The notes beneath the pieces were generated by a model. That model was given only the letters and a program-made list of their open reading frames with translations, did no database searches and was not told where the DNA came from. Shown one piece after another: positions 727 through 29,933 of a stretch of 29,933 nt of DNA. The stretch spans positions 1 through 29,933 of IMG/VR virus record IMGVR_UViG_3300048825_000099, one strand, 5' to 3'. Source of the stretch: a virus. Numbering within the stretch: position 1 is the stretch's first letter; each line of letters starts with the position of its first letter. The position numbers were made by a program, and so were the translations under genes.

Positions 727-764
727 AACAAATCAACGCTGGGATATATTTTTCCCCGCCCCCC

Positions 765-793
765 TTGACACGCTCCCCCTACTGCCCTATATA
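765..793 (+). promoter_or_regulatory. Sigma-70-like promoter for the rightward genes
   Basis: TTGACA (765-770), a 17-base spacer and TATATA (788-793) make a near-consensus promoter. Transcription should start around 799-801, practically at the ATG at 802, so the first message may be leaderless. TATAGT at 790-795 is an alternative -10 with a 19-base spacer. This would drive the replication and packaging genes. Confidence 0.8.
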
Positions 794-801
794 GTGGCGG
801 C

Positions 802-1068: not shown

Positions 1069-1126
1069 TTGCATTTTAGCGCCTGGGGTGATATACCAGC
1101 CCGAGCGACGCACTTTTGGAGGCCAG

Positions 1127-2590: not shown

Positions 2591-2751
2591 AGTTTCGGGT
2601 CACCCCAGCGGTCTTAGAGCGGTCGGATCGCTGCCCATTTACGAATGCTGCTCCGGCGGAACCCGCAAACATCTCACGCAAGCGGAATGGGAGCAACTTC
2701 CCACGCTGGGAAGAGCACACGGGCTTGAAAGCCGAAGCAATTAGAGGCTGA
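2569..2751 (+). pseudogene. Decayed, frameshifted duplication in front of terS
   Basis: The frame from ATG 2569 reads MPAKGTLKFRVTPAVLERSD, matching the start of the small terminase at 2762 (MPAKGTVRFVLTPTMLEK). After about residue 20 the sense changes. A different frame of the same stretch reads ECCSGGTRKHLTQAEWEQL (about 2643-2697), matching the C-terminus of the gene at 2297. A frame change near 2625-2632 would join the two parts, so this looks like a broken paralogue rather than two genes. It may still be translated as a 60-residue peptide from 2569, since GGGAG precedes it. Confidence 0.5.
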
Positions 2752-2761
2752 GGAGACTGCC

Positions 2762-4556: not shown

Positions 4557-4565
4557 GGGGGCAGC

Positions 4566-6842: not shown

Positions 6843-6851
6843 GGGGTGCCC

Positions 6852-7037
6852 ATGGTCCAGACCGTCAAGTCACAGTCGGAACTGTGCTGCAAATGCGAGC
6901 AGCCGGTCCGCGCCGCAGGGCAACGCTACTGCCTCTATCACCACGCCATGCACGAATATATCTATCGCGCAAAGGCGCAGATACAGGCTGAGGCTGCGAG
7001 CAAGCAGCTGGCGCTCAAGTTCCGGCGGAAGCCCTGA
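6852..7037 (+). CDS. Small CxxC zinc-finger-like protein
   Basis: This encodes 61 residues. ATG 6852 is preferred over GTG 6846 because GGGGG (6842-6846) lies five bases upstream. Residues about 11-30 read CCKCEQPVRAAGQRYCLYHH, a C-x2-C...C-x2-HH arrangement that could hold one zinc ion. A charged helix rich in A, Q and K follows (IYRAKAQIQAEAASKQLALKF). It sits ten bases after the portal gene, so it is probably made with the packaging proteins. A small DNA- or protein-binding partner in head assembly is possible; no family is recognised. Its stop codon lies within the first copy of a 16-bp tandem repeat. Confidence 0.65.
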   Translation: MVQTVKSQSELCCKCEQPVRAAGQRYCLYHHAMHEYIYRAKAQIQAEAASKQLALKFRRKP

Positions 7038-7060
7038 CGCGTGGAAGCCCTGACGCGTGG
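7029..7060 (+). repeat. Perfect 16-bp tandem duplication covering a stop codon
   Basis: AAGCCCTGACGCGTGG occurs twice back to back (7029-7044 and 7045-7060). The first copy contains the stop codon of the gene ending at 7037. The second copy leads into the conserved block before the -35 box at 7070. A similar duplicated gene end occurs at 22821-22858. Confidence 0.9.
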
Positions 7061-7069
7061 AACAGCTTT

Positions 7070-7099
7070 TTGACAAGAGCCGGGTGGATGTGGTTATAT
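7070..7099 (+). promoter_or_regulatory. Sigma-70-like promoter before the head genes
   Basis: TTGACA (7070-7075) and TTATAT (7094-7099) are separated by 18 bases. The block just upstream (7048-7074) is nearly identical to that before the promoter at 22873-22901, suggesting common regulation. Transcription would start near 7106 and cover protease, capsid and later genes. Confidence 0.7.
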
Positions 7100-7192
7100 C
7101 ATCTCGGCGAGTGAAAAAACCAGAGCAGGTGCGCAATGAGGGTGGCTCGGACGATTTCACCAGAGCCACCCTCTATCAGAGCAAGGCGGGCC

Positions 7193-8215
7193 ATGAGCAA
7201 AGACACGCGATTCATCGGAGCCCATGTTAAGGCAGTCTCGGCACCCGGCGAGGCTGCGCCTGATGCTCCCTATGGCTGGGTTGAGGGCATTGCCAATGCC
7301 TTCGAGGTGGACCGCTACGGAGACCTGGTGCTGCCGAGCGCCCTGGCCGGAGCCATCGAAAAGTTCATGCTCAACCCTGTGCTGAGCTTCGGGCATGGAA
7401 TCGATGGCAACCCCACCAACGGCACGTTGCCAGCCGGAACGGTCTTGAGCATCAAGCAGGACCTCAAAGGCAATACAACTTTTCGGGCTCGCTTCGCGAA
7501 CACTGCAGACGCGCAGAAGGTGCGCCAGCTTTACGCCGATGGCGACATGCGGGCCTTCAGCATCCACTTCTTGCCCTACGGGTCAAGCCTGGAAGTGCGG
7601 CCTCCCACGCCAGAAGAGTTGCAGCAGTTCCCTGGCACCGAGCGGGTCATCAGCAAGATGGAATTGATCGAGATTGCCTGCGCCGTGGTCCCGGTCAACG
7701 CCGGGAGCCTGGCCAGCGGTGCCAAGAGCCTCAACCACGGCAAGGGCAAGATGTCGCCCATGCCTACACTCAAGCAAGGAGCAAAAGCCATGGCTAAGAC
7801 CATCCTGACCAGCGAAAGCCGCAAGGCCATCGCCAACGCGGCGGGTGCCTATGAGAAGCATGTGAAATCCATGGAGGGCCTCAAGGACCAGCTTGAGGAG
7901 CTCTCCGAGAGCCCCGAGGGTGCCGAGGACGATCATCCGGGCATGGCCTCCAAGTGCTCCAAGGCTTTCCAGGCCGCGACTGAAAGCCACGGTCAGCTTG
8001 GCGAGGCCATCAAGGCCATGCACGTCAGCATCAACGGCGGCAACGAGCCTGCTTCGGATGGCGATGAAGACCCTGATGCCGAGCCTGGTGATGACGCTGA
8101 TGCCGGTGCTGCCGGTGGCGAGGCCGTCACCGATGGCGGCACTCCCCCGCTCCCTGAAGACCCTGAAGCCAAGGCCCTCGTCTCTGCGTTCCGCGCGGGG
8201 CTGGCGAAGAAGTAA
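7193..8215 (+). CDS. Prohead protease (HK97/U35 type) with C-terminal scaffold-like region
   Basis: A protein of 340 residues from ATG 7193. Residues about 25-170 match the U35 prohead protease fold: GWVEGIANAFEVDRYGDLVLPSAL, then LSFGHG with the probable catalytic His68, and RAFSIHF with Ser123, followed by ELIEIACAVVPVN. It cleaves scaffold and capsid during head maturation. Residues about 190-340 are helical, then strongly acidic (DGDEDPDAEPGDDADAG), like a fused scaffold. An in-frame ATG at 7136 would add 19 residues. I prefer 7193 because the added codons (AGG, TCA, AGA) differ from the rest of the gene and the family starts near the domain. Confidence 0.88.
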   Translation: MSKDTRFIGAHVKAVSAPGEAAPDAPYGWVEGIANAFEVDRYGDLVLPSALAGAIEKFMLNPVLSFGHGIDGNPTNGTLPAGTVLSIKQDLKGNTTFRARFANTADAQKVRQLYADGDMRAFSIHFLPYGSSLEVRPPTPEELQQFPGTERVISKMELIEIACAVVPVNAGSLASGAKSLNHGKGKMSPMPTLKQGAKAMAKTILTSESRKAIANAAGAYEKHVKSMEGLKDQLEELSESPEGAEDDHPGMASKCSKAFQAATESHGQLGEAIKAMHVSINGGNEPASDGDEDPDAEPGDDADAGAAGGEAVTDGGTPPLPEDPEAKALVSAFRAGLAKK

Positions 8216-8217
8216 GC

Positions 8218-8232
8218 GAGCCGCTACGGCTC
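8218..8232 (+). other. Hairpin between protease and capsid genes
   Basis: GAGCCG, a three-base loop CTA, and CGGCTC form a 6-bp stem right after the protease stop. There is no T-run, so it is not a terminator. A message-stabilising or processing hairpin upstream of the strongly expressed capsid gene is possible. Confidence 0.4.
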
Positions 8233-8269
8233 ATCACCGAGGCGCTCGCCTCCAACTCAAGAGGGCACC

Positions 8270-9556
8270 ATGAAGCTGACGGACATCGCAAGCCTGCTTG
8301 CCGCTGAAGTGCAGCGTGGCTTGCAGAACAGCAAGGCTGAGACCGCGAAGGAAATGAAGGCCATGACCAAGGGTCTGGTGGCTGATGCCCTGGGCACCGG
8401 CACGCCGGGCTACAAGGCCTTGGCGGAACTGATCGAGAAGGAAGTGTCGATGCGCATCCCCACCGCTGCGCTGTTCTCGCCCGACAAGGGCAAGGGCTAC
8501 GACCCCGAGAAGGGCTTCAGGGGCATGAGCAAGGATTTTGCTGACAGCCTGGCAAAGAAGACGCTCTTTGCCATCAGCACCGACAGCATCCGCGCCCGCA
8601 TGTTCGCTGGCGAGACCGCGAAGGCCATGAGCGTTGGCACCGGCTCCTCGGGCGGCTACCTGCTGCCCGAGGAGTTCGTGGCCGAGGTTGCCCGCAAGCT
8701 GGTTCACACCAGCGTCTTCCTTGGCTCTTGCCGGGTGTGGAACGGTGTGGACATGATCGGCAAGATGCCTCGGGAAACCGGCACGGTGAACGTGACCATC
8801 GGTCCCGAGCTGACCACGCCCACGCAGACCCAGCCGACCCTGGGCCAGCTGACCTGGGCGTTGCAGAAGCGCATCGCGCTCACCAACCTGCCCCAAGAGT
8901 TGTGGAAGTTCAGCGGCGTGGATGTGCTAAACCTGCTGGCGACGATGTTCGCCGAGCAGTTCCAGAAGACCGAGGACTACTACTACCTCCTCGGCTCGGG
9001 CAGCAACCAGCCCATGGGCCTGCTGACGCAGACAACGGGCATGACCAGCCTGCCCATTGCGGGAGCGGCCACCGTCTGGCAGGACTTGTTCGCACTGAAG
9101 CACAGCGTCAAGAGCCAGTATCGCGTTGAGAAGGCCAATTGCGTCTACATGGCCAACAACGCCACCATTGAGCTCTTGGCCACGCTCACCGATGACCAGA
9201 ACCGCCCGGTGTTCCTTGATCGCGGCGCGGACGGCATCGGCTCCGCCAACATCCCCCCGCAGACCGTGGGCTTCATCGCTGGACACGCGGTGCTGGAGAA
9301 CCCCTACGTTCCCGGCCCGCAGTGCGAGACCCTGAACGGCACCATCATCACCAGCACGGCGACCACCAGCCAGGTCGTCTTCGGCAACCTGGAGCGCGGC
9401 TACTACGCCTTCAAGGGTCCGCAGATGGAAGTCAAGACCAGCGACCAGGCGTATGACGCCTTCTTGAACGATGGCCTCTACACTCGCGCCATCGACTTCC
9501 TGGACGGCAAGCCTGCGATTCCCGAGGCCATCGCCATCCTGACGGGCGTGCGGTAA
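8270..9556 (+). CDS. Major capsid protein, HK97 fold
   Basis: A protein of 428 residues. GAGGG lies five bases before ATG 8270. Residues 1 to about 115 are charged and helical, like the delta/scaffold domain that the prohead protease removes. The mature part begins near residue 119 (AMSVGTGSSGGYLLPEEFVAEV), a classic HK97 major capsid start. It continues with the E-loop/P-domain motifs KRIALTNLPQELWKFS, EDYYYLLGSGSNQPMGLL and the C-terminal GYYAFKGPQMEVKTSDQAYDAF. It forms the icosahedral shell. Its order after protease, the length and the motifs all agree. Confidence 0.95.
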   Translation: MKLTDIASLLAAEVQRGLQNSKAETAKEMKAMTKGLVADALGTGTPGYKALAELIEKEVSMRIPTAALFSPDKGKGYDPEKGFRGMSKDFADSLAKKTLFAISTDSIRARMFAGETAKAMSVGTGSSGGYLLPEEFVAEVARKLVHTSVFLGSCRVWNGVDMIGKMPRETGTVNVTIGPELTTPTQTQPTLGQLTWALQKRIALTNLPQELWKFSGVDVLNLLATMFAEQFQKTEDYYYLLGSGSNQPMGLLTQTTGMTSLPIAGAATVWQDLFALKHSVKSQYRVEKANCVYMANNATIELLATLTDDQNRPVFLDRGADGIGSANIPPQTVGFIAGHAVLENPYVPGPQCETLNGTIITSTATTSQVVFGNLERGYYAFKGPQMEVKTSDQAYDAFLNDGLYTRAIDFLDGKPAIPEAIAILTGVR

Positions 9557-9631
9557 GCCAAAGCTGAATCACCCGGACCCTGCCAGGCGGCGGGGCCGGG
9601 TGGTCCAACCCTTCCAAACTCCGAGGTCATC

Positions 9632-10153
9632 ATGGGCAGCGCAACTGGGGTTGTGGGCTACGGCTCACTCCCCGAACAGATCCAGTTCGTGGGCGCATCG
9701 AGCGTGGCGGGCACCAAGCCCACCACCCTGGGCGTCCCCACCCTTTCCCCTGCTGTGCAGTCCGCAAGCTTCAACACCGGCGGCATCCAGCGCAAGGGTG
9801 CCAACGTGGCCATTGCCAACATCCAGGCCGGTGCCATCGTGGCCAGCGGCTTGTTCGCGGTCAAGGTGCAGCACAGCAACGACGATGGCGTGACCGATCC
9901 CTACACCGACCTGGCCGCTTCCGCCCAGGGCAACATCAACTGGACCGACATCGCGGGCACCGCTCATGCGGCCTCGGTGACGGCCTCGGTCGGCGGTGCG
10001 GCCGCCAACACCGATACCCAGCTGGTGACGGACCTGCGCGGTGCCAAGCTGTGGGTGCGCTACGTCTACACCCTGTCGAGCGGCACCAGCGTTCTGCTGG
10101 GTGCCAGCACCCTGCTGGGCGCTTATGACACCCTGCCGGCCAGCGGCAACTAA
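9632..10153 (+). CDS. Probable capsid-associated (decoration-type) protein
   Basis: A protein of 173 residues, beta-rich, beginning MGSATGVVGYGSLPEQIQ. The pattern VQHSNDDGVTDPYTDL...TDLRGAKLWVRYVYTL...STLLGAYD resembles small beta-sandwich proteins encoded just after the capsid gene in many HK97-like phages, where they decorate or stabilise the head. No catalytic motif is present. It is followed by a strong terminator (10163-10211), so capsid and this protein form one high-output unit, which fits a structural role. The family assignment is inference from position and pattern. Confidence 0.65.
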   Translation: MGSATGVVGYGSLPEQIQFVGASSVAGTKPTTLGVPTLSPAVQSASFNTGGIQRKGANVAIANIQAGAIVASGLFAVKVQHSNDDGVTDPYTDLAASAQGNINWTDIAGTAHAASVTASVGGAAANTDTQLVTDLRGAKLWVRYVYTLSSGTSVLLGASTLLGAYDTLPASGN

Positions 10154-10162
10154 GACAACCCT

Positions 10163-10211
10163 GGGGATGCGGCCCTAGCTTTCAGGCGAGGACCGCATCC
10201 CCATTTTCCTT
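10163..10211 (+). terminator. Rho-independent terminator after the capsid unit
   Basis: GGGGATGCGG (10163-10172) pairs perfectly with CCGCATCCCC (10193-10202), followed by ATTTTCCTT. A ten-base G+C-rich stem with a short T-run is a good intrinsic terminator. It may be partly read through, because no clear promoter precedes the next gene at 10224. Confidence 0.8.
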
Positions 10212-10223
10212 GGGAGAACGTCA

Positions 10224-10697
10224 ATGCGCACCGAAGCCAGCGAGAAAGAAGAAGCCGAGTTCAACGCCCCTGGCAAGCCGATCAGGCTCAAGGCACCGGC
10301 AGGCGGCCCGGACATCAAGGTCATCGTCGATGGCGCCAAGCGGCTGATTCCTGCAGGCACGGTGTTCGTGCTTGGCCAGCCCAAGCGCGCCAGGCAGCTC
10401 ATTGAGCTGGGGCTGGCCCATGAGACCACCGAGCCAACCGCTGAGGAAAAGGCCAAGTCCGCTGCCGAGGATGAGGTGGCGACTGACCTAGTGATGGCCG
10501 AGATGCGCGCCAGGGCCGGGAAGATCGTGGCCGAGCGCAAGGAGAAGCGCGCCAAGTTCGAGGCCGTCATTCGCAAAATGAACGCTGAGACCCTGGATGC
10601 CGAGCTTGAGAAGCGCGGCCTGAAGAATGTGCTGCCCAACACCGAGGCCAAGGTGTCGACCATTGTGGCTGATGAGCTGGCCAAGGTGTCGGAGTAA
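10224..10697 (+). CDS. Hypothetical head-region protein
   Basis: A protein of 157 residues. GGGAGAACGTCA precedes ATG 10224. Residues about 15-60 are beta-like (KPIRLKAPAGGPDIKVIVDGAKRLIPAGTVFVLG). A highly charged helical middle follows (EERKAKSAAEDE-type, then MAEMRARAGKIVAERKEKRAK). The C-terminus TLDAELEKRGLKNVLPNTEAKVSTIVADELAKV resembles a small SAP/HeH-like helix-loop-helix. It lies between the capsid unit and the connector, a spot usually held by head completion or accessory proteins. Function not assigned. Confidence 0.6.
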   Translation: MRTEASEKEEAEFNAPGKPIRLKAPAGGPDIKVIVDGAKRLIPAGTVFVLGQPKRARQLIELGLAHETTEPTAEEKAKSAAEDEVATDLVMAEMRARAGKIVAERKEKRAKFEAVIRKMNAETLDAELEKRGLKNVLPNTEAKVSTIVADELAKVSE

Positions 10698-10700
10698 GGC

Positions 10701-11342
10701 GTGACGACCGCCTATTGCACAACTGCTGATGTGGCTATGGCGGCGGGCAAGTATCAAACCTTGTCCGCCGCTGAGACCACGGCAGCATCGGCGTCTATCA
10801 TCCAAGCGCAGGCCATCATTGAGAAGGCCACCGGCACCTTTTTTTACCAGGCACACTTGCAGGTGACGACCGAGCCGGTGAACCGTGTGCAGACCCGCCT
10901 TTTCTTGCCCGCACCCTGCTTGAGCATCGACAACAACACCATCACCGAGAACGGCTCTGTGCTGACCTTGGGCACGGACTTCTTGCTCTACCAGCCGAGC
11001 CCTGGCGGTATTCCCACCGGTCCCGGCTACCTCGAGAAGATGGCGGACAGCGTGGCCGATTGGGTTGGCCCTGCCGCCATTGCTCCATGGGTGAAGCTCC
11101 AGCAAAGCGTGGTGGTGAGCGGCGTATTTGGCTATGCCTCGGTGCCTGCCGACATCAACAAGCTCTGCGCTTGGAAGGCCGCTGAACTCCTGGGCTGGCT
11201 GACCATCGACTACTCGGACGGTGGCGGCATCAGCCATCAGGTGGGCAAAAACGGCATGCCTGATTGGGCGCTGCGCATCCTGCGCGGGCGCACGGTGAAC
11301 TTCTTGGACGAACAGTATTTCGGCATCAAGGTGCTCTCTTGA
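10701..11342 (+). CDS. Head-tail connector (gp6-like adaptor)
   Basis: A protein of 213 residues starting with GTG 10701 four bases after the previous stop; GGAG at about 10691 is the ribosome site. The N-terminus TTAYCTTADVAMAAGKYQTLSAAETTAASASIIQAQAIIEKATGTFF is the helical start seen in phage connector/adaptor proteins (gp6/YqbG-like), with later residues forming the beta insertion and IKVLS end. It would form the ring under the portal through which the neck is joined. The assignment rests on the N-terminal helix pattern, size and position; no single diagnostic residue exists. Confidence 0.65.
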   Translation: MTTAYCTTADVAMAAGKYQTLSAAETTAASASIIQAQAIIEKATGTFFYQAHLQVTTEPVNRVQTRLFLPAPCLSIDNNTITENGSVLTLGTDFLLYQPSPGGIPTGPGYLEKMADSVADWVGPAAIAPWVKLQQSVVVSGVFGYASVPADINKLCAWKAAELLGWLTIDYSDGGGISHQVGKNGMPDWALRILRGRTVNFLDEQYFGIKVLS

Positions 11343-11812
11343 GCGCCGCCGCCAATCTCATGGCGGAGTTGGTGGACCTGCTCTCTACCGCCGCGCCAAC
11401 CCTGGCGATTCCCATCGACCCTGCCCGCGTGTTCCAGATGCAGCCGGACGCCAACGGGCAGACGCCTTACCTGGTGGTGGTGCTCCCCAATCCGTTCTTG
11501 GTGAGCGAGTGGTCGGGGTCAGGCCAGCTTGTGGATACCCACTTCTTCGCCGAGGTTCAGGTGGTGACGCAACTCCCGCGAGGCGTAGCACACATCCTGG
11601 GAGACAACACCCAGCCCGGAGAAATGAACCTGGTTGAATCTATCATCGATGCGCTGGAAAACAACTTTGCGGCTTTCAAGGCTGCCGCGCCATCCCTGGT
11701 GGATTACCGGGTCAAGGCCGGTGGCGCGTTGGTAGATGCCGCTACCGGCTGGCTCATCCAATGCCCCATCACCATCGATTTCTGGACCCGCACTACTGCG
11801 GGCAACCGCTAA
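11339..11812 (+). CDS. Neck / tail-terminator-like protein
   Basis: A protein of 157 residues. I chose TTG 11339, which overlaps the preceding stop (TTGA) and has AAGGTG five bases upstream. ATG 11360 is an alternative without a ribosome site. The alternating hydrophobic pattern (TPYLVVVLPNPFLVSEW, HFFAEVQVVTQLPRGV) and a helix (NLVESIIDALENNFAAFK) suit the small alpha/beta fold of tail terminator or head-closure proteins. The terminal WLIQCPITIDFWTR strand agrees. A role in closing the tail tube or neck is inferred from position between connector and tail tube. Confidence 0.55.
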   Translation: MSAAANLMAELVDLLSTAAPTLAIPIDPARVFQMQPDANGQTPYLVVVLPNPFLVSEWSGSGQLVDTHFFAEVQVVTQLPRGVAHILGDNTQPGEMNLVESIIDALENNFAAFKAAAPSLVDYRVKAGGALVDAATGWLIQCPITIDFWTRTTAGNR

Positions 11813-11826
11813 CTGGAGGCGCATCA

Positions 11827-12021
11827 ATGCGCATCTTCTTTGAGCCCGAGAATAGCGACCTGGAAGAAATCAACGTCCTGCACCGTGGGCGGCTGGTCCT
11901 GCTGAAGCGTGGGGTGCCGAGCATGGACTTTGCCCAGGACTTCGCCGATGAGCTGCTCCGCGTCCACGCCGGGAAGTTCCGCGAGGCCGCGGCTGACGAA
12001 CTGCCCGAGGCGCCCCAGTGA
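11827..12021 (+). CDS. Small hypothetical protein in the neck region
   Basis: This encodes 64 residues beginning MRIFFEPENSDLEEINVL. GGAGG about eight bases upstream supports ATG 11827. The sequence is acidic, with a beta-like N-terminus (RGRLVLLKRGVPS) and a short helix (AQDFADELLRVHAGKFREAA). The stop overlaps the GTG start of the next gene (GTGA), so they are coupled. No family is recognised. Confidence 0.6.
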   Translation: MRIFFEPENSDLEEINVLHRGRLVLLKRGVPSMDFAQDFADELLRVHAGKFREAAADELPEAPQ

Positions 12022-12368
12022 GCGCCCTGCTGGATGAGATGCGGGCGGTGGCGCATCAGGACGCCGCGCACATCGTGGATGACTTCTACGCCTTCCTGGT
12101 CTCGGGCCGTGACGAGGTGCAGAGCCTTTTCGCCAAGGTAGCTGGCGTCAAGAGCTTGGCCGATGAGGCGCGCCTGCTGGCGTTGCCCGAGGCCGAGCGC
12201 AAGGCTGCGCTAGAGACCGTTTTCCGCGACACCAGCGAGAAGGTGGCTGCTGGCGTCCTGATAGCCCGGTCCGCGCTCGACATGCCCGCTCCGGTGGCCT
12301 CCACGGCTCCCACAAGCCATTCCGTAGGTTTTGAGGCCCCGGCGGGGCCATCCGCACCCCAAGCCTGA
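12018..12368 (+). CDS. Hypothetical helical protein before the tail tube gene
   Basis: A protein of 116 residues with GTG 12018 as start, in a GTGA overlap with the previous stop. Most of it is helical and charged (LLDEMRAVAHQDAAHIVDDFYAFLV, AKVAGVKSLADEARLLALPEAERKAALETVF), with a low-complexity A/P tail. Its position just before the tail tube would fit a neck or small assembly factor, but nothing diagnostic is visible. Confidence 0.55.
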   Translation: MSALLDEMRAVAHQDAAHIVDDFYAFLVSGRDEVQSLFAKVAGVKSLADEARLLALPEAERKAALETVFRDTSEKVAAGVLIARSALDMPAPVASTAPTSHSVGFEAPAGPSAPQA

Positions 12369-12403
12369 CATTGAGGGCTTAAAACCCTTTTTAGGAGTTC
12401 GCC

Positions 12404-13387
12404 ATGCCCGCTCTTGGCCACAACGGCAGTTTACAGATGGTAAAAGAGGTGACTTGGGGCACGGACCCTGGCAGCGGCTACACCGGCCAGCCCGTCACCG
12501 GCGAGACCCTTGAAACCAAGCAGGCTTACCTGTGGGGCACGCCCGTCCAAGGCACTCGCGAGGTCACCGCGCAGAAGGTGCTGGCTGGTGTGACGGCCAG
12601 CGGAGGCATCAGCTTCGATGCTGACGTCGAGGGCATTCTTGGCATGTGCCTCAAGGGCATCCTCATCGGCGAGACCTACGCCACCAATGGCTCAGGCAAT
12701 GGCGGCACGCACACCTTCGCACCGACCAGCGAGCCCACGGCGGTTCCGAGCTTCAGCATCCTGGTCAACCGGGACAACGTGATTGGTGCCGCTGGCAACG
12801 TGTGGGATTACGTTGGCAGCACGGTGGACAAGCTCTCGCTCTCAGCATCCGAGGGTCAGCTCCTGAAGGCCAGCGCGACCTTCAGCAGCAAAAGCGGCGC
12901 ACCTTCCGCCACCGCCGTGACACCCACCTACGCCACGCAGATGCCCCTGGTCTACCGCAACGGGACTTTCACTGTGGGCGGTGTTGCGACTGCGCTCAAG
13001 AGCTTCAAGCTGGACATCGACAGCGGCAACTACAACAAGCGCGGGCAGCTGGGCTCGCAATACATCCAGCAGCAGCAGCCGGGCGCGCTCAAGGTGACGG
13101 GCAGCTTGTCCGCCTACTTCGATAACATGACCCTGCTGACCGATTACCTCAACGGCACGGATGCCATCCTGAGCATGGCTTTCACCGGCGCGGCGCTGGG
13201 CACTAGCACCAGGGGCCTCACCATCCTCATCCCGGTGGCGCAGTTCACCGGCAAGACCCCCAACATCAAGGGCGCGGCCAGCGAGATCATGCTTGACCTG
13301 CCTTTCACCGCCTGGCTCTCGGGCTCGGGCAGCCCCAACCACCTCATCCAGGCCACGCTCATCAACTCGCAGCAGTCCGCCTACTAA
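12404..13387 (+). CDS. Major tail tube protein
   Basis: A protein of 327 residues. AGGAG six bases upstream sets ATG 12404. The start MPALGHNGSLQMVKEVTWGTDPG and the beta-rich body (KVLAGVTASGGISFDADVEGILGMCLKGIL, YVGSTVDKLSLSASEGQLLKASATFSSK, KLDIDSGNYNKRGQLGS) match phage tail tube proteins, which start with a 'KE-T-WGT' segment and then form a beta barrel. It polymerises around the tape measure. Its position upstream of the tape measure supports this. The length is normal for the family. Confidence 0.85.
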   Translation: MPALGHNGSLQMVKEVTWGTDPGSGYTGQPVTGETLETKQAYLWGTPVQGTREVTAQKVLAGVTASGGISFDADVEGILGMCLKGILIGETYATNGSGNGGTHTFAPTSEPTAVPSFSILVNRDNVIGAAGNVWDYVGSTVDKLSLSASEGQLLKASATFSSKSGAPSATAVTPTYATQMPLVYRNGTFTVGGVATALKSFKLDIDSGNYNKRGQLGSQYIQQQQPGALKVTGSLSAYFDNMTLLTDYLNGTDAILSMAFTGAALGTSTRGLTILIPVAQFTGKTPNIKGAASEIMLDLPFTAWLSGSGSPNHLIQATLINSQQSAY

Positions 13388-13400
13388 GCCGGGGCGCGCC

Positions 13401-13904
13401 ATGGCTGACCTTATCACCATCACGGTCCCACCCGAACTGACAGCCCTGCTTGAGAAATTAAGCGGGGCTGATCAGCTTAAGGCGTCCACCGATGCCGCCA
13501 AAGCCGCTGGGCCGGTGCTCACTCGCCAGCTCGTCGAACAGGCGCAAAGCTCGGCGGGCAGCGGCCCTTTCGCGTCCGGCTGGCTGGCCCAGCCTGCGGG
13601 GCCAGGGCTCTCCGTTACCAACAGCATGGGCGTGTCGGCGTTCATCGAGTTTTCCACGCGGGCGCATAAGATTCAGGCGCGTCCTGGCGGCGTCCTCGCC
13701 TGGGTGCCGGGGCGCGGGGCTTTCTCGGCGGTCAATGCCAGCAAGGCCAAGGCTGGGGCGGGTTGGGTATTTGCCCAGAGCGTCAATCACCCTGGCACCG
13801 TGGGCAAGGACGTGTTCGGCATCACCATTCGCGGCAAAGGTGGCGACACAATCTTTGATGCCATGACCACCGAGGCCACGGAATACTTGGAGGGCGCGCC
13901 ATGA
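13401..13904 (+). CDS. HK97-gp10-like neck / tail completion protein
   Basis: A protein of 167 residues from ATG 13401; a longer frame upstream overlaps the tail tube gene and lacks support. The pattern GPFASGWLAQPAG...FIEFSTRAHKIQARPGG...W-V-F-A-Q-SVNHPGT...AMTTEATEYLE follows the HK97-gp10 family, with the HPG motif near residues 131-134. Such proteins join head and tail. Most phages encode this before the tail tube, whereas here it follows it. It overlaps the next gene by four bases. Confidence 0.7.
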   Translation: MADLITITVPPELTALLEKLSGADQLKASTDAAKAAGPVLTRQLVEQAQSSAGSGPFASGWLAQPAGPGLSVTNSMGVSAFIEFSTRAHKIQARPGGVLAWVPGRGAFSAVNASKAKAGAGWVFAQSVNHPGTVGKDVFGITIRGKGGDTIFDAMTTEATEYLEGAP

Positions 13905-20445: not shown

Positions 20446-21693
20446 ATGAGCTATATTTCCATCAATCCGCCAAATGTAGGGGACCCAACGCGCTTAGATG
20501 CTTTTGCCGCTCCCGTAGTTTCCAATATCCAATATTTTCAGGGGGCCGCGCAATCGGCCCTTGCCGTTGGCATCAGCAATGGGAGCTTTGAGGCCGGTTC
20601 GGGTGCCGGTGTCGCACCCTCGAACTGGACCCTGGCGCTTGCCTCGGGCAACTCCTGCAATATCGAGACGGCGTCCGCCAATGTTGACCACGGTGCCCAG
20701 GCCTTTAGCATGACCACGCCGGGGAGCGTGAGCGGTGGCGTGAGCCTGACGACTTCCGATTATTACGCCATCGGGGAGCTTGGATGGTTGACCTTTAGCT
20801 GGTTCATGAAATCTACGGTGGCCGGAATCGCAAATGCGGTCAATGTTTTGTTTTACGACTGCAACAAGACATATCTTTACACTGCTTCGATTTTTTCATC
20901 CTCCGCGAATAATACATCTTGGGCTCCCAATATTGCCGGAGTGCAAGCCGCAGACACGGTTCGGTTTTTCCAGCTCCAGCTAGTGGGCGTTAACAACGCT
21001 ACCGCCGGAACAGTCTATTGGGACGGCGTTACCTATTCCTCGGGAGATTTCACTGTCGGCGCATCCATCTTTGTGTCCAGCGGCACCTATACTCCGCGTT
21101 CAAATATGATTTATGTGCGCGAGTTTGGCGGCGGCGGAGGCGGTGGTGGGGCAACTGTGGCCGACATAGGCATTATAGCTAACGCCCAACCTGGAGTAGC
21201 CGGAAACCCTAGCTGGGTTGTGTCTAGTGCATATTTGGCGCGCGGAGGAAATGCGGGGACGGCAGGCTCTACAAGCACCGAAGGCGTTGGTGGTGCATCC
21301 GTGGCATCCATTTACACCGCTCCGCCCAATCTCGGCTCTCAAAAAGGGACTACCGCCGGATCTAATCCGGTGCTGAATGGTAGCTATTATGACGGTGGTC
21401 CGGGAGGAGCCAATTATTTTGGGGGCGCTGGTGGTAGCGGAGGGATACAGACCGGCGCAGCTGGCGGCATAGGCCAATTGGGAGCTGGCGGCGGGGCCGG
21501 AGGCGGAGTAACTGCGGGCGGCGGCGGGGCATCGGGGGAGTATGCAGAGTGGTATATCCCAGTTACTCCTGGCGTGCCAGTGCCCGTAACGGTGGGCTCC
21601 GGCGGGTCTGGTGGCGCTGGCCAGGTGGCATCGAGTGGTACTGGGGCCGCCGGTGGCCCGGGTGGCTCTGGCTTGGTCATCATCCAGGGCTGA
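20446..21693 (+). CDS. Receptor-binding adhesin 2 (paralogue of adhesin 1)
   Basis: A protein of 415 residues with AGGAGGGG (20436-20443) before ATG 20446. The domain order is the same: N-terminal attachment segment ([20 protein letters not shown]), a beta sandwich ([17 protein letters not shown]...YWDG), then a glycine-rich domain ([19 protein letters not shown] and glycine runs) ending [11 protein letters not shown] 68-bp block (20710-20777) is identical to 19465-19532 in adhesin 1, and other blocks match closely. The surface loops between glycine runs differ. Two paralogues suggest two receptors or a hetero-oligomeric tip. Confidence 0.82.
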
Positions 21694-21725
21694 TTTGTTG
21701 TCATACATTTAACCGAGGCGCGTCC

Positions 21726-22835
21726 ATGAAAAAGTATCTCGCCATCCTGCTCCTGCTCTGCGCGGTGTCTGCCCATGCGGCTATTAGCTGGGCGGGCTGG
21801 TGCGTTACCACCACGGCTGCGGCAGGGACTGGCACCAGCTTCAGTCAGTGGATTACCACCACGGCGGGAGCTAATCGCTGCCTGGTGTTTTCCTGCACCA
21901 GTTCCCAAAATGGGAGCACCAACAGCGGATTTATTTCCGGCATTACTTTTGGCGGCAACAGCTTTAATTATTTGACCGTAACCATCACCTCACCCGGCGG
22001 CACATCGAACACGCAATCCGAAATTTGGGGTCTGGCCAATCCCCCGGCGTCTACATCGGGCACGCTGGCCATCACCATGAATAGTACCGCCAACTCTCCG
22101 GCACATTTATTCATGGCCATGGAGTTTGATGGCATCAATCAAACCACCCCGTTTGGCAATCAGGTCATTTTGAGCAACGGCACCTCGGCTTCTGGCGTGT
22201 CCACCATCAGCCCAGCCTATACCGGCAGCTGGTTCTTTCAGATGGTGGGGGCCGCGAGCGTGGGTTCGGTGGTAACGCCGGATTTAAAAACCACGCCCGT
22301 CTCAAACGCCTATTACAGCAACGCGGCAATCTCCGGCTCATTCAGCTACACCACTTGGACCGCGGCTTCGACCGCGTTTACCTACACCTGGGGCGGCGAC
22401 TCCGCCAACGGGCAGATAGTTGGTGAGCTGGTTGCCGGCCCCACTTACACGGTCACACCAACGCCATCCCCCACGGCCACCATCACGCCCACCGATACCC
22501 GCACGGGCACACCAACGCCCACGTTCACCATCACGCCAAGCGCGACACGGACTTACACGTTCACCATCACGCCAAGCGCGACACCGACTTACACGGCCAC
22601 GCCCACCGATACCCGCACGGGCACACCAACGCCCACGTTCACCATCACGCCAAGCGCGACACCGACTTACACGGCCACCATCACGCCAAGCGCGACACCG
22701 ACTTACACGGCCACCATCACGCCGACCCTCACCATAACGGTCACGGCCATCCCCATCCCCTGGGCGGTACAGAGCGTGGTCATCCCGCAACGCCAGAAAA
22801 CGCCGGGGTGCTATTTCTGCGGCTTGTATCCCTGA
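21726..22835 (+). CDS. Exported protein with Pro/Thr-rich repeats
   Basis: A protein of 369 residues. GAGGCG five bases upstream supports ATG 21726. Residues 1-18 ([18 protein letters not shown]) are a clear Sec signal peptide. Residues about 20-235 form a beta-rich, Ser/Thr/Gly-rich domain. Residues about 240-338 are repeats such as [20 protein letters not shown] and [20 protein letters not shown]. The C-terminus ends with CYFCGLYP. No catalytic motif is seen. A Sec-exported protein in the tail/lysis region is unusual. It could be a host surface or superinfection factor, or a virion part exported from the cell. Pro/Thr repeats of this style are common in secreted bacterial proteins. Confidence 0.75.
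22485..22712 (+). repeat. Tandem repeats coding for the Pro/Thr stalk
   Basis: A 64-bp unit occurs identically at 22485-22548 and 22599-22662 (period 114). A 36-bp unit coding [12 protein letters not shown] occurs at 22563-22598, 22641-22676 and 22677-22712. Such identical repeats can expand or contract, so stalk length may vary between isolates. Confidence 0.9.
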
Positions 22836-25388: not shown

Positions 25389-25655
25389 TCACTTCCGCGC
25401 AATTTTAGCCGTGGCCCTGCTATCATGCGGGGCCACGGCTTTTAACTTTCCTCTCTTTAAAGCATCCGAAAAATCAGGATATTCTTCTCTAACTCTTGCA
25501 AGAGTGTCGACCGACATTCCAAATCTCGCCGCTATTGCTCCGTAGCTAAATGCTTGAGTAGCTATGGCCTCAGCTTTAATGATATCCTCTTCTTTTGGAA
25601 CAAAGGGCTTCGGCCCTGGTGTTGATGGAGTCCTATTCTTAGTCTTATTGGTCAT
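25389..25655 (-). CDS. TerS-like HTH protein in the AT-rich cassette
   Basis: An 88-residue protein from ATG 25655, with GAGGG five bases upstream. After a basic, proline-rich N-terminus (MTNKTKNRTPSTPGPKPF), residues about 26-70 (KAEAIATQAFSYGAIAARFGMSVDTLARVREEYPDFSDALKRGKLK) form a helix-turn-helix. It parallels TerS at 2762 (ASRGLDHDDIARVLGISVTTLYEHKAKNEEFAEAIRRGKAK). It is shorter and on the other strand. The coding end runs through a terminator hairpin of the other strand. It overlaps the ASCH gene by 11 bases. It could be a TerS homologue, or a DNA-binding protein that competes with or replaces TerS. Confidence 0.7.
   Translation of the reverse strand: MTNKTKNRTPSTPGPKPFVPKEEDIIKAEAIATQAFSYGAIAARFGMSVDTLARVREEYPDFSDALKRGKLKAVAPHDSRATAKIARK
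25408..25443 (+). terminator. Rho-independent terminator ending the rightward genes
   Basis: GCCGTGGCCC (25408-25417) pairs with GGGCCACGGC (25430-25439), then TTTT. It marks the end of the rightward late region. The hairpin DNA also codes for the last residues of the leftward gene at 25389-25655. A minus-strand reading shows no T-run. Confidence 0.85.
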
Positions 25656-25959
25656 GATTGCCCTCAAATTCAAAAATACCCAATTTTCCTTTTATCTTTT
25701 CCGGCTTAACCAATTGTATATTCTGAAGTTCAAAAACAAAAAGCAAGGGAGAAAAATCAACACAGGAAGCCTTTTCGTCCTCTTTTATCATTTTCCGACA
25801 ATTAACAATTTCGGCTGTACAAACTGTTTCCCCTTGAGGCTGAGAAGCAGCAATAATAATAGGTCCTCTGTATCTTGTTGCCCAACTCCGCGTTTCAAGA
25901 GTTTTCACCCCATCTGCTATAAGATTAGCCCATTTAGGCTTAAGCATTATTGCTTTCAT
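25645..25959 (-). CDS. ASCH-domain protein
   Basis: A protein of 104 residues. AGGAGG four bases before ATG 25959 is a strong ribosome site. The sequence MLKPKWANLIADGVKTLETRSWATRYRGPIIIAASQ is the hallmark of ASCH/PUA-like domains (P-x-W-A-x-L-I...G-x-K-x-x-E-x-R-S-W...Y-R-G). These small domains bind or process modified nucleosides and RNA, and are common in phages. The C-terminal half (FELQNIQLVKPEKIKGKLGIFEF) completes the barrel. It shares 20 bases with the GNAT gene upstream and is strikingly AT-rich. Confidence 0.88.
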   Translation of the reverse strand: MKAIMLKPKWANLIADGVKTLETRSWATRYRGPIIIAASQPQGETVCTAEIVNCRKMIKEDEKASCVDFSPLLFVFELQNIQLVKPEKIKGKLGIFEFEGNHDQ

Positions 25960-26476
25960 AAATCCTCCTAAGTCTTCCTGCCGTTTGTCTTAAACCAACT
26001 TTTACAAGGATGATTGTCTTTAAATTTCTGCCTGGAATTGGCTCTCCAATCCTTTCGTATCCTCTTTTTTCAAACCATGGCCCCATTTGCTCGGTCGCTC
26101 TAACAAATGAAGAGTTTAAAAATCTAACTATCTTGTCCCCGAATCCGCGGCCTTGATATTTTCTCGAAACAGCCAAAGTTAAAAGCTGGTTTCTCCTTGG
26201 ATTTGATATGCTTATGGCTATTCTTTCACCAGAAAAACAATAAAAATAACACCCTCCATTTTTTGCGTTTATCGACCAATTATTTTCCCCAACAAATGCA
26301 GGATATCTTGCACTATTCAACAGTTTCTTGGCGATTCTATACTCTCCAGGCCTGCCTAGAACAACTTCAAAATCATTTTTGCATACGCAAATGGACTCTC
26401 CCGCAATTAAGACATTTGCAGGTTTCTGAATTTCCTGGTGTTGCTCGACTAAATTCATCGGGAGATTTGTATTCAT
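25940..26476 (-). CDS. GNAT-family acetyltransferase-like protein
   Basis: A protein of 178 residues. AAGGTGAT lies about seven bases before ATG 26476. Residues about 75-165 show the GNAT fold: a strand ERIAISI, then LLTLAVSRKYQGRGFGDKIVRFL with the acetyl-CoA loop Q-G-R-G-F-G at 108-113, then a helix and WFEKRGYERIGEP near the end. The substrate is unknown. The start overlaps the ParB-like gene by 104 bases, an unusually long overlap. AT-rich codon use sets it apart from the rest of the phage. Confidence 0.8.
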   Translation of the reverse strand: MNTNLPMNLVEQHQEIQKPANVLIAGESICVCKNDFEVVLGRPGEYRIAKKLLNSARYPAFVGENNWSINAKNGGCYFYCFSGERIAISISNPRRNQLLTLAVSRKYQGRGFGDKIVRFLNSSFVRATEQMGPWFEKRGYERIGEPIPGRNLKTIILVKVGLRQTAGRLRRIYESNNA

Positions 26477-26903
26477 CTAGCATCACCTTCAACTTGTCAT
26501 CAAATTCAAGAACTTCTTTCAAAATTTGTTTATCTAAATGAATATCTATTAAAATTTCGTCTGGCAAATCAGCCAAAAAGGGAGCGATTAGTTCTGCCGG
26601 GGGGTCTCCGTGAATTGTATTTAAATTCATGGCAATTCTTTTGCATTGCATCTCTGACATATCAATCAAAACAACGGGATATTCTGTCATGCCTAACTCT
26701 TTCCCAGCCATAAATCGATGATTTCCGCTGACTATTTCGTACTCATCGTTTCCAATTTCTCTAACTACAATAGGAGCTAAAAAGCCGTCTCTTTCAATAC
26801 TTCTTTTTAGACTATCCATTTGTTTAGGCGTTAAATATTGCGGGTTCTTTCTAAGAAGTCTTAATTTCTGGGCCTCTATTTCTAGGTATTTAGGTTTTAT
26901 CAT
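26373..26903 (-). CDS. ParB-like nuclease/partition-domain protein with Cys-rich tail
   Basis: A protein of 176 residues. The ParB/Srx-type domain covers about 20-115: LTPKQMDSLKRSIERDGFLAPIVVRE, then EYEIVSGNHRFMAGKELG with the conserved G-x-HR (60-63), and MNLNTIHGDPPAEL. In phages such proteins act in DNA binding or NTP-dependent clamping and are often near modification or packaging genes. The tail TCKCLNCGRVHLRM (161-174) looks like half of a zinc site; it is encoded in the part overlapping the GNAT gene. A consensus promoter lies at 27002-27030. It is the first gene of the AT-rich cassette. Confidence 0.85.
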   Translation of the reverse strand: MIKPKYLEIEAQKLRLLRKNPQYLTPKQMDSLKRSIERDGFLAPIVVREIGNDEYEIVSGNHRFMAGKELGMTEYPVVLIDMSEMQCKRIAMNLNTIHGDPPAELIAPFLADLPDEILIDIHLDKQILKEVLEFDDKLKVMLDEYKSPDEFSRATPGNSETCKCLNCGRVHLRMQK

Positions 26904-26974
26904 TTATCGCCATGCCTTTCTTTTGGGGCGTCCAGAGCTTCAGCTATTCGCCAAGCCGTGTTTTGTTTTTATTG

Positions 26975-26987
26975 TCCCCGATGGGGA
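26975..26987 (-). other. Hairpin in the leader of the ParB-like gene
   Basis: TCCCC and GGGGA around a 3-base loop form a short stem in the leader between the promoter at 27002-27030 and the start at 26903. There is no T-run. It could influence translation or message stability, but the evidence is only the inverted repeat. Confidence 0.3.
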
Positions 26988-27001
26988 ACGCCCGCAGTTG
27001 A

Positions 27002-27030
27002 TTATAACCCGTTTAAAAATATGAATCAAG
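27002..27030 (-). promoter_or_regulatory. Consensus promoter for the AT-rich cassette
   Basis: On the minus strand TTGATT (27025-27030), 17 bases, and a perfect TATAAT (27002-27007). The transcript would start near 26995, about 92 bases before the ParB-like start. This gives the cassette its own, possibly constitutive, expression, typical of a cargo (moron) unit. Confidence 0.85.
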
Positions 27031-27103
27031 CGGGATTATGAATACCGCCTCCAACTCATCCTCCGTCCAGTCCGCGCCCTCGATTAGTTTGACCAGCCAC
27101 CAG

Positions 27104-27726: not shown

Positions 27727-27881
27727 TCAGTCACCTGAGATTGGGTTGGGCCGTGCCATTGAAAATGACAACCTAGATTGTTGTGGTTGTCCGTATCCTT
27801 GTGATGCGCTGCGCTGTGTCCGCACTTGCAGATGATGCTCTTGGGGTCTGGCTTCCTGTCCCGCCTCTCTTGCGTGGTCAT
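27618..27881 (-). CDS. Cysteine/histidine-rich small protein (MTTQER type)
   Basis: A protein of 87 residues. AGGAG five bases before ATG 27881; the start overlaps the previous stop by four bases. Residues about 18-60 (CKCGHSAAHHKDTDNHNNLGCHFQWHGP...WICCPCGMSK) have enough Cys and His for a zinc site. The last 28 residues are basic and overlap the next gene. The first seven residues, MTTQERR, recur at the end of the 28706-29239 protein, a sign of gene shuffling in this operon. Confidence 0.62.
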   Translation of the reverse strand: MTTQERRDRKPDPKSIICKCGHSAAHHKDTDNHNNLGCHFQWHGPTQSQVTEWICCPCGMSKQRLLRSPTKASAKPESSSPSKRAKR

Positions 27882-28357
27882 TGGGGCTCCTGAGTAAACT
27901 TAATGCAATCGGAGGAACCGAGTAGCTGATTCTCTAACGCACCCTTCTCCGCCTCAAGCGCAGAGACGCGGGCGGCGAATGTCCGCCACGCGCAAAGCAG
28001 GGGATACCATTCCTCTCGAGGATACCATAGTTGCATGTCGCCATATTCAGGAGCGTCAATATCCGCCGCTGGCTCCATCCTCCCATCCGCCAGGTTGGTG
28101 TATGGTCCATCTGAAAACTCATCGGGCTCCCACGCTTCGCCCTCGTCCTCCCCTTCCTCCGTCCTCTCGGCGGCTGGCTGGGCGCGGGCGTTCCATCTTG
28201 AGGCTGCCTCGCCTAAACCCGCAATGCCCTCTCCCTCCAAATAGCATAGGCAGGTAGGGCACCCGATGCGATATATCGTCGCATCCGGATGGGGGTAATT
28301 TTTGGATATGTGCGCCTCGCTCCCGCAGAAAGGGCATCGCTTCAGCGCTTCGCTCAT
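27878..28357 (-). CDS. Lar-like zinc protein (restriction-alleviation type N-terminus)
   Basis: A protein of 159 residues. AGGAGG seven bases before ATG 28357. Residues 1-60 (MSEALKRCPFCGSEAH...IGCPTCLC...GEAASRWNAR) follow the Lar/phage-zinc-ribbon pattern: two C-x2-C pairs (8/11 and 33/36) and a final W-N-x-R. In coliphages Lar lessens type I restriction; many phage relatives are of unknown role. The acidic middle is followed by WYPREEWYPLLCAWRTFAARVSALEAEKGALENQLL, a helix. Whether it acts against restriction here is inference. Confidence 0.78.
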   Translation of the reverse strand: MSEALKRCPFCGSEAHISKNYPHPDATIYRIGCPTCLCYLEGEGIAGLGEAASRWNARAQPAAERTEEGEDEGEAWEPDEFSDGPYTNLADGRMEPAADIDAPEYGDMQLWYPREEWYPLLCAWRTFAARVSALEAEKGALENQLLGSSDCIKFTQEPQ

Positions 28358-28539
28358 TTGTTTGCCTCCTGTTTGATTGCGCGGTCATCCCGCGCGGCCT
28401 CGTACCGCTCATCGCCGTCATCGTCCACCCAGCCGCCCTGGCCGCTGCATCGCTGGCAGATAGTGGTATCTTCCGCGGCCTCGGGTTCCTGCTCTCCGCT
28501 GCCCTCGCAGTCCGGGCATGTTTTCCATCTCTGGCTCAT
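28354..28539 (-). CDS. DnaJ-type zinc-finger miniprotein
   Basis: A protein of 61 residues. ATG 28539 has GGAGG seven bases upstream; an in-frame ATG at 28554 is less well placed. Two CxxCxGxG elements are seen, CPDCEGSG (C8, C11) and CQRCSGQG (C28, C31), the DnaJ central zinc motif without the J-domain. Stand-alone forms occur in phages and may bind host chaperones or nucleic acids. Start and stop overlap its neighbours by four bases. Confidence 0.75.
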   Translation of the reverse strand: MSQRWKTCPDCEGSGEQEPEAAEDTTICQRCSGQGGWVDDDGDERYEAARDDRAIKQEANK

Positions 28540-28709
28540 TCTCGGTCCTCCCATCGGCCCGCAAATGGGCAGGGCTGCGGGCAGTCCAGGCCATGTAGGC
28601 CGTGGCCACCACGATGCAGGCTATTGGGGCAGGCATCCAGCCGCGCCTGCCAGCTTAGATGCTCCTCGCGGATAGCTGCGAGGCGGTTAACGATTTCGAT
28701 GGCGGTCAT
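28536..28709 (-). CDS. 57-residue protein with C-NSL-RGG-GLH-DCP-PCP motif
   Basis: ATG 28709 has GGAGG eight bases upstream and overlaps the previous stop. A helix (MTAIEIVNRLAAIREEHLSWQARL) leads to CPNSLHRGGHGLHGLDCPQP (from C27), with C43 and C47 at the same spacing as in the paralogous motif at 27391-27726. It is likely a metal-binding or disulfide-like fold; the family is not recognised. Confidence 0.68.
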   Translation of the reverse strand: MTAIEIVNRLAAIREEHLSWQARLDACPNSLHRGGHGLHGLDCPQPCPFAGRWEDRE

Positions 28710-29239
28710 TTTGCCATCCTCCGCTCTTGCGTAGTCATGCCGTCCCCTCCGTCCGCCGTGTAGCCAAGCACCCATGGATGCTCCCTACGCTCGTTCTCTG
28801 CCAGCATCATTGAGAAGTTTGCTATATCAGCGCAGTCACGTTGAGCTACTGCGTGCAGACCTGCATCTAGGTTGTGGCGCAAGTCCCTGAGATTGATTTC
28901 AAGCTTTTCCAAAAAATATGCGCGGCAGCAATTATCCCAGCCGCCTCTGTGTTCATTGCGCCTTAACTGGGCTTCCATCATTTGAGCCATGTTCTTGACG
29001 GATTCCCTGGCCTGCACCGCCTTATCCAGCTTGGCCTTGAGCGCGTCCCGCTCGGCCTCAAGCTCGGCCACTCGGGCGGCGTGGTCGGCCTTCATGCGGC
29101 ACCAAGGACACTCTGGAATAGGGTGCCCTGGTATGTCCCAAGCTTGCGCGGCATCAGGCATATAGCCATTTCTGCACCCCATTGGGCAATCATCCTCCTT
29201 TTGCTCTGGCGGCTGGGCTTCCTTCAGCTCTTCGCTCAC
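28706..29239 (-). CDS. Coiled-coil protein with N-terminal zinc motif
   Basis: A protein of 177 residues starting with GTG 29239, chosen because AAGGAGG lies seven bases upstream; the frame could extend to 29371 but without a ribosome site and over another gene. After MSEELKEAQPPEQKEDD come CPMGCRNGYM and ECPWCRMKA (two C-x-x-C-like pairs), then a coiled coil (ARVAELEAERDALKAKLDKAV) and a polar C-terminal half. The last residues MTTQERRMAK copy the start of the gene at 27881. Function unknown. Confidence 0.7.
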   Translation of the reverse strand: MSEELKEAQPPEQKEDDCPMGCRNGYMPDAAQAWDIPGHPIPECPWCRMKADHAARVAELEAERDALKAKLDKAVQARESVKNMAQMMEAQLRRNEHRGGWDNCCRAYFLEKLEINLRDLRHNLDAGLHAVAQRDCADIANFSMMLAENERREHPWVLGYTADGGDGMTTQERRMAK

Positions 29240-29415
29240 GGCTTGACCTCCTTGTAGGGGATGCAGCGGACTCTCTTGCTGAATGCGAAGCACCTCATCT
29301 TCACATCGCTGCACCAGTTTTTCTCGATGTCGTCTGAAAACTTTTTTTCGTGCGGTACGCCGTGAGGACAATTAGCGCACGACTTCCCTGCGCTGTCACA
29401 GATATATTCAGGCAT
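29236..29415 (-). CDS. Cys-rich miniprotein of 59 residues
   Basis: ATG 29415 to stop 29236: MPEYICDSAGKSCANCPHGVP... with six further Cys/His positions (C-x6-C-x2-C, then C, C, C near the C-terminus). It overlaps the gene before by eight bases (ATGCCTGA) and shares four bases with the GTG of the next, as expected of a coupled operon gene. It is below usual gene-finder length limits. Likely a small zinc-binding protein; role unknown. Confidence 0.62.
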   Translation of the reverse strand: MPEYICDSAGKSCANCPHGVPHEKKFSDDIEKNWCSDVKMRCFAFSKRVRCIPYKEVKP

Positions 29416-29572: not shown

Positions 29573-29933
29573 GCCTTCACCTCGCTCTCTGCCTCTGGCT
29601 TCAGGTCGCCCGTGATGCCGCTCAGGTCGCCGCTGATGCCGGTCAGGTCGCCCCTGATGCCGCTCAGGTCGCCCCTGATGCCGGTCAGGTTGCCCGTGAT
29701 GCCGGTCAGGTCGCCGCTGATGCCGGTCAGGTTGCCGCTGATGTCGGCCAGGTCGCCGCTGATGCCGGTCAGGTCGCCCCTGATGCCGCTCAGGTCGCCG
29801 CTGATGCCGGTCAGGTTGCCGCTGATGTCGGCCAGGTTGCCCCTGATGCCGGTCAGGTCGCCCCTGATGCCGCTCAGGTCGCCCCTGATGCCGCTCAGGT
29901 CGCCCCTGATGCCGGTCAGGTTGCCCGTGATGC
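29569..29933 (-). CDS. Heptapeptide-repeat protein, C-terminal part (partial at right edge)
   Basis: The frame enters at 29933 and stops at 29569-29571. It consists of 16 copies of a seven-residue unit G-I-x-G-(D/N)-L-(S/T/A), ending GDLKPEAESEVKA. Such GxxGDLS repeats occur in phage proteins of unknown role and suggest a regular beta-solenoid or extended fibre. It lacks its start in this window. If the molecule is circular, the start is ATG 355 and the N-terminal 118 residues are those at 1-355, giving a helical head and a repeat tail. It overlaps the next gene by four bases. Confidence 0.78.
   Translation of the reverse strand, partial: ITGNLTGIRGDLSGIRGDLSGIRGDLTGIRGNLADISGNLTGISGDLSGIRGDLTGISGDLADISGNLTGISGDLTGITGNLTGIRGDLSGIRGDLTGISGDLSGITGDLKPEAESEVKA
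29599..29933 (-). repeat. Tandem 21-bp repeats, 16 units to the window edge
   Basis: The unit is close to CAGGTCGCCCCTGATGCCGGT read on the plus strand, repeated without interruption. Variation is confined to a few positions (ggt/gct, cgcc/ttgcc, cctg/gctg/cgtg), all keeping the reading frame. The array coincides with the assembly edge, so copy number should be treated with caution. Confidence 0.95.

Follow-up and report, generated by a model that had tools for sequence, protein, structure and literature searches.

A very probably relocated ParB-GNAT-ASCH module with a clipped small terminase gene in a phage genome

Introduction

The four AT-rich genes at 25389-26903 of a 29,933-nucleotide viral sequence (IMG/VR record IMGVR_UViG_3300048825_000099, positions 1 to 29,933; hereafter the window) are very probably a relocated pre-terminase module in which the small terminase (TerS) gene has been clipped. 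In other phages, the ParB-GNAT-ASCH-TerS module is found immediately upstream of TerL. The copy described here would have been acquired horizontally and placed in reverse orientation at the terminator that ends the late operon, where TerS was cut to its HTH domain. In the simplest history, this insertion would have cost TerS its 3' part and removed TerL altogether; the phage kept its own TerS-TerL pair. As an overall explanation, we lean, with confidence just short of an even call, toward an acquired module whose working part is ParB-GNAT-ASCH and which would acylate nucleic acid. What the data show is the gene order, the joint divergence, the folds, the TerS truncation, and the foreign base composition; transfer direction, expression, substrate, and biological effect are inferred.

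The trio offers a compact two- to three-gene target for testing predicted nucleobase acetylation, and it gives a reason to examine phage DNA for base acylation or terminase for acetylation. The form of the module without EVE or PIN has so far been found only in uncultured viruses, where it moves as a unit before unrelated terminases.

Composition and borders of the AT-rich segment

The segment and the elements within and beside it are as follows.

25440-27043, no strand: acquired AT-rich segment (change-point fit and G+C content)
27001-27029, minus strand: promoter-like site TTGATT-17-TATAAT upstream of ParB (consensus match only)
26373-26903, minus strand: ParB/Srx-domain protein, 176 aa (Pfam ParB_N, phrog_620)
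25940-26476, minus strand: GNAT acetyltransferase, 178 aa (AlphaFold GNAT fold; alignment A9)
25645-25959, minus strand: compact ASCH (PUA-like) protein, 104 aa (Pfam ASCH)
25389-25655, minus strand: N-terminal HTH domain only of TerS (phrog_309), the 3' end replaced by terminator antisense
25407-25440, plus strand: intrinsic terminator of the late operon, a 14-bp stem followed by TTTAAC

A two-change-point fit (LLR 113) delimits a segment of ~1.6 kb with a G+C content of 0.389, compared with 0.608 outside it. The four-gene stretch itself stands at 0.391 against 0.608 for the remaining window, in which every other 1.5-kb stretch reaches at least 0.554, and GC3 amounts to 0.29-0.34 in the cassette genes versus 0.58-0.88 in the phage genes. 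An earlier sequence-only reading of this DNA had proposed a foreign, AT-rich origin from 60-nucleotide G+C counts of 19 (26221-26280) and 43 (8641-8700). Both counts are exact, and the drop in GC3 and the sharp change-points bear the proposal out. It had also described four overlapping leftward genes, and all four indeed lie on the minus strand, with overlaps at 26373-26476 (ParB/GNAT), 25940-25959 (GNAT/ASCH), and 25645-25655 (ASCH/HTH). Pfam, PHROGs, and the AlphaFold fold agree with the families that it had assigned to them (ParB, GNAT, ASCH, and a TerS-like HTH).

Both borders coincide with recognizable elements. The left edge is the last stem base of the strong rightward terminator, which also supplies the final part of the truncated TerS ORF, and the right edge falls just outside the promoter-like site. 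That site, read from 27029 to 27001, matches the consensus at 10 of 12 positions and is the sole one upstream of ParB. The consensus promoter that the earlier reading gave the cassette corresponds to this single promoter-like site, and an enrichment across the region is not clear (6 sites versus 3.8 +/- 1.6 in shuffles). Each of the four ORFs is preceded by a Shine-Dalgarno-like sequence (AGGAGG for ASCH), and the genes may well be expressed. No convincing direct repeat or target duplication was found at the segment borders, an RNA family search found no RNA families, and PADLOC returned weak matches only.

The ParB-GNAT pair in other viruses

The relatives of the cassette are loci from viral contigs, labeled with L-numbers, and they comprise about 14 non-redundant contigs with synteny and full-length homologues. 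Scans of the viral contigs with single window proteins (GNAT, ParB, HTH) gave no match; the link emerged only in a search with a three-sequence ParB alignment, and a scan with the GNAT alignment yielded further relatives. In the relatives first found, the GNAT gene overlaps ParB as the next gene, and its product is 33-39% identical to that of the window over the whole domain. Among all relatives, identity to the window proteins is 39-51% for ParB and 33-44% for GNAT, with ParB directly preceding GNAT wherever upstream sequence exists. The pair, or the GNAT gene at a contig end, is located directly before terminase genes in L019-L024, L099, L100, L102, L103, L107, and L112. It is followed by TerS and TerL in L019-L024, L102, L107, and L109, by TerL in L112 and L100, and by other terminase types in L099 and L103. 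The TerLs (Pfam TerL_ATPase/nuclease and GpA_ATPase) fall into six groups without a BLAST link to one another, which means that the module has become associated with different packaging machineries.

ParB and GNAT have diverged together: across 12 pairs, sequence distances for one protein track those for the other (rho 0.75, Mantel p 0.0005). Outside the module group, the GNAT partner was found in none of 71 control ParB loci from phages (L028-L098). The window carries the same arrangement, with an A6-type ParB overlapping an A5/A9-type GNAT on the same strand. Here, however, the pair does not directly precede a complete TerS and TerL: TerS is clipped and no TerL follows. The closest gene order to that of the window is seen in L019 (ParB-GNAT-small ORF-TerS-TerL).

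The sequence-only reading had made its idea of a set depend on the four families occurring together elsewhere, and a neighborhood search shows that they do. It was right about a coherent set placed after the late genes and overlooked that this set normally stands immediately ahead of the terminase genes. Within the openly readable literature covered, no paper describes ParB-GNAT-ASCH beside terminases.

A location directly before six BLAST-unrelated types of TerL would suit a packaging-linked regulator, with ParB and GNAT targeting either TerS/TerL or the site where packaging starts (e.g., by terminase acetylation or pac marking). Nonetheless, we consider this role unlikely. TerL lies within ~5 kb in 48 of the 71 control loci, so phages commonly have a ParB gene close to or ahead of their terminase, which tempers any view of this placement as a special trait of the module. 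Furthermore, the module stands away from terminase genes in the window and in L101 (no terminase within 5 kb of the pair, phage-like genes before it), a placement that speaks against strict linkage.

Some neighboring genes, all recognized by eye, deserve mention. ABC-transporter genes follow the pair in L101. C5 DNA methyltransferase-like genes are located just upstream of ParB-GNAT in L019 (3413-4576) and L024 (4024-4854), and a glycosyltransferase-like gene recurs near ParB-GNAT/terminase in L021 (7766-8515), L022 (4046-4798), L023 (8020-9048), and L024 (7900-8814).

The clipped TerS gene and the late terminator

The phage also has terminase genes of its own, elsewhere in the window.

2762-4556, plus strand: intact TerS (2762-3292) and TerL (3141-4556) of the phage, not preceded by ParB-GNAT

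The TerS-like ORF of the cassette starts at an ATG with a Shine-Dalgarno-like GAGGG (an alternative TTG start at 25673 is also possible). It matches phrog_309 (TerS; E 4e-9) over profile positions 124-194 of 319 only, whereas the intact TerS of L020 matches positions 129-274. It thus shares a homologous N-terminal HTH with phrog_309 proteins (e.g., the relatives of Pasteurella phage Pmp13 TerS, to which it is 39% identical over 54 aa) and lacks everything that follows the HTH in full-length TerS. Identity to the phage's own TerS is 28%. The similarity to both the relatives' TerS and the phage's own stops at RGKLKA (alignment A7), where the terminator stem begins. Because homology ends at the segment end, the codons beyond that point (VAPHDSRATAKIARK) are in essence terminator sequence read on the opposite strand; the terminator itself is predicted to fold on the plus strand at -32.4 kcal/mol (z -7.3). 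With the relatives' TerS as queries, no remainder of the cassette TerS was found in the window.

The resemblance to a small terminase noted by the sequence-only reading therefore holds for the HTH, which matches phrog_309, and is confined to the N-terminal part, cut off at the late terminator. Its further suggestion of packaging interference is not supported. Such a weapon would require the clipped domain to compete for pac, either that of a rival phage or that of the host phage, and the intact HTH, the ribosome-binding site at the ATG, and the expressed-looking operon would be compatible with that. On the other hand, only the 5' portion of a TerS gene is present, with terminator antisense as its final codons and nothing after the HTH; its product is just 28% identical to the TerS of its own phage; and the relatives carry an ordinary, complete TerS at that very place. 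As the block appears to have been inserted against the terminator with loss of the TerS end, we deem packaging interference by the HTH protein very improbable. Most likely, the gene is a remnant.

Proteins of the module

The window ParB (Pfam ParB_N, E 5e-14; phrog_620, 3e-21) carries the N-terminal domain that characterizes the ParB/Srx superfamily. It is 45-50% identical to the proteins of L019-L024, with C162, C164, C167, and H171 invariant, and the family has a conserved C-terminal CxCx(2,3)CGxRH knuckle. Its structural model (pLDDT 65) is weaker than that of GNAT. The modeled N-terminal domain matches CTP-binding ParB/Noc, the serine kinases SerK/SbnI, and sulfiredoxin, and SGNHR is found at the position of the nucleotide-binding motif; the protein is thus a predicted nucleotide-binding ParB/Srx protein.

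For GNAT, the Pfam match (E 2e-4) is weaker than the Pfam cut-off, and the fold is confirmed by the AlphaFold model (pLDDT 84), a plain GNAT fold with low confidence for residues 1-31. The protein is a single domain without an EVE match and retains an intact acetyl-CoA motif (QGRGFG). Its family alignment (A9) has 14 members, and the closest to the window's is that of L099 (44% identical). None of seven members scanned matched PHROGs, and tblastn of 50,697 phage records and 72,556 plasmids gave no member with the queries used. Across deposited phages, plasmids, and genomes, the only relative found was one generic GNAT.

The window ASCH (Pfam ASCH, E 4e-9) has the human ASC-1 ASCH as its closest solved structure, and it is 43% identical, ungapped over 97 aa, to the ASCH adjoining the L099 GNAT on the opposite strand. 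A second clear ASCH is found beside the pair in L103, and among the relatives only L099 and the L103 group have one above the Pfam cut-off. L101 and L021 give weak, sub-threshold matches, and L019, L020, L023, and L112 have a small ORF nearby that is ASCH-like by motif only; profile matches in L019, L020, L021, and L023 are circular, since those proteins are part of the profile. With so few clear cases, ASCH is a frequent neighbor of the pair rather than a proven constant.

Escherichia coli YqfB is an ASCH amidohydrolase for N4-acetylcytidine that uses K21, T24, and R26 (PMC6972931). With its ASCH domain, it would be the natural model for an eraser of acetylated cytosine. The window protein, however, reads GVKTLETR, which by eye places Glu at the Thr24 position, as in ASC-1-type domains. 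A YqfB-like deacylase role was ruled out for the window ASCH, given this replacement of the catalytic Thr.

A small ORF upstream of ParB in three relatives (L020:685-996, L023:4733-5032, L112:4212-4565) contains GEKTDT(I/V)R, in which K, T, and R follow one another as in the YqfB active site (K-x-x-T-x-R). It has no Pfam or PHROGs match and, judged from this motif, could be a diverged ASCH deacylase.

Known systems and putative function

Mom of phage Mu is a GNAT-fold DNA modifier. The window GNAT, also a phage protein of this fold, might by analogy be one too. Mom is nonetheless absent among the named fold and sequence matches of the window GNAT, which differs in having a ParB partner and a kept acetyl-CoA motif.

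The intact ParB-GNAT-ASCH most resembles the published (PIN-)GNAT-EVE operons, which almost always carry ASCH, are common in prophages (GNAT-EVE), and have been proposed to act on modified nucleic acid and to acetylate nucleobases (PMC7641849). In both, GNAT has an ASCH neighbor in the same operon. Yet the window cassette is not a GNAT-EVE system: its GNAT is a single domain without EVE or PIN, and GNATs of its type have a constant ParB/Srx partner and are linked to terminase genes. According to the 2020 survey, no GNAT plus ASCH module had been experimentally characterized (PMC7641849). A second precedent is 7-deazaguanine DNA modification, in which DpdB is a ParB-like ATPase; ASCH/PUA domains serve as readers of modified bases (PMC12839542). 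In the Dpd system, a ParB-like protein works with a base-modifying enzyme, as is proposed for the module, whose genes include no TGT/DpdA.

The core pair of GNAT and ParB probably modifies nucleic acid or protein. In the mechanism that we favor, the nucleotide-binding ParB/Srx protein would place or drive GNAT on nucleic acid, GNAT would acylate an amine of a nucleobase with acyl-CoA as the donor, and the PUA-like protein ASCH would recognize or reset the mark. Phage DNA could thereby be protected or distinguished, or host RNA could be modified. Nucleic-acid (DNA) modification is the best-precedented, putative function for the trio. Owing to the precedents of the GNAT-EVE/ASCH operons, DpdB, and the ASCH/PUA readers, we rank nucleic-acid acylation above the acetylation of protein or tRNA and above a terminase-directed role; as an activity of ParB-GNAT-ASCH, it is a serious possibility, short of probable. 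Several points count against the overall explanation: the shared ParB-terminase position of 48 of 71 control loci, the lack of the EVE domain on which the published base-acetylation proposals are built, the RimI-like character of other phage GNATs, the restriction of clear neighboring ASCH genes to L099 and the L103 group, and the occurrence of the cassette in one assembly. A more specific version, with a ParB-type NTPase that loads a dedicated GNAT on DNA, an ASCH that reads or removes the acyl mark, and a mobile pre-terminase unit that passes among phages with unrelated terminases and possibly marks DNA for packaging or protection, we regard as rather unlikely.

Protein-directed or toxin-like action is the main competitor, and we consider it doubtful. 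GNAT would then acetylate a host protein or charged tRNA, with ParB as a nicking nuclease or regulator, in a host-takeover or toxin-antitoxin-like moron. The GNATs in phage polyvalent proteins were judged RimI-like and likely protein modifiers (PMC5512222), and GNAT-EVE systems have also been read as toxin-antitoxin (PMC7641849). The Foldseek neighbors of the window GNAT include the protein N-terminal acetyltransferases Naa50, Ard1, and RimI, but such matches are generic for the GNAT fold. While the promoter-like site and foreign composition would suit a moron, the block holds no antitoxin-like family and the ASCH neighbor points to nucleic acid.

Surroundings in the phage

The cassette follows the lysis genes, with its own genes on the opposite strand. 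Three contigs assembled from other samples (L119-L121) align at 99.95-100% identity with parts of window 1-13553 and do not reach the cassette. Since the segment is known from one contig and its near-identical companions stop short of it, an assembly chimaera or inert passenger DNA has to be weighed. We find either scarcely credible, as both segment ends lie inside the contig, the ORFs stand in the expected order with ribosome-binding sites, and conserved residues are kept.

L120 extends 5.9 kb past the left end of the window with leftward genes. Rearranged pieces of window 28025-29271 recur at its far end (95-100% identity), which suggests a genome of ~34 kb in which about 5 kb separates the two window ends. 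The cassette would then occupy the junction between the leftward early genes and the end of the rightward late genes.

Several minor features were noted along the way. The leftward genes of L120 include, by eye, a single-strand binding protein and a RecA-like ATPase. A Lar-like restriction-alleviation gene is found in a cluster of small Cys-rich genes (window 27878-28357, L120:1-1120), which is rearranged between the window phage and the otherwise identical L120 into pieces of 95-100% identity, as if shuffled by recombination among repeats. At 29601-29933, ~16 copies of a 21-bp repeat run off the contig end and probably stopped the assembly there; the repeat is open in several frames on both strands (a GIRGDLSGIRGDL-type repeat protein). 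Finally, 36-bp and 114-bp tandem repeats at 22484-22723 code for a Thr/Pro-rich stretch of the protein encoded at 21549-22835.
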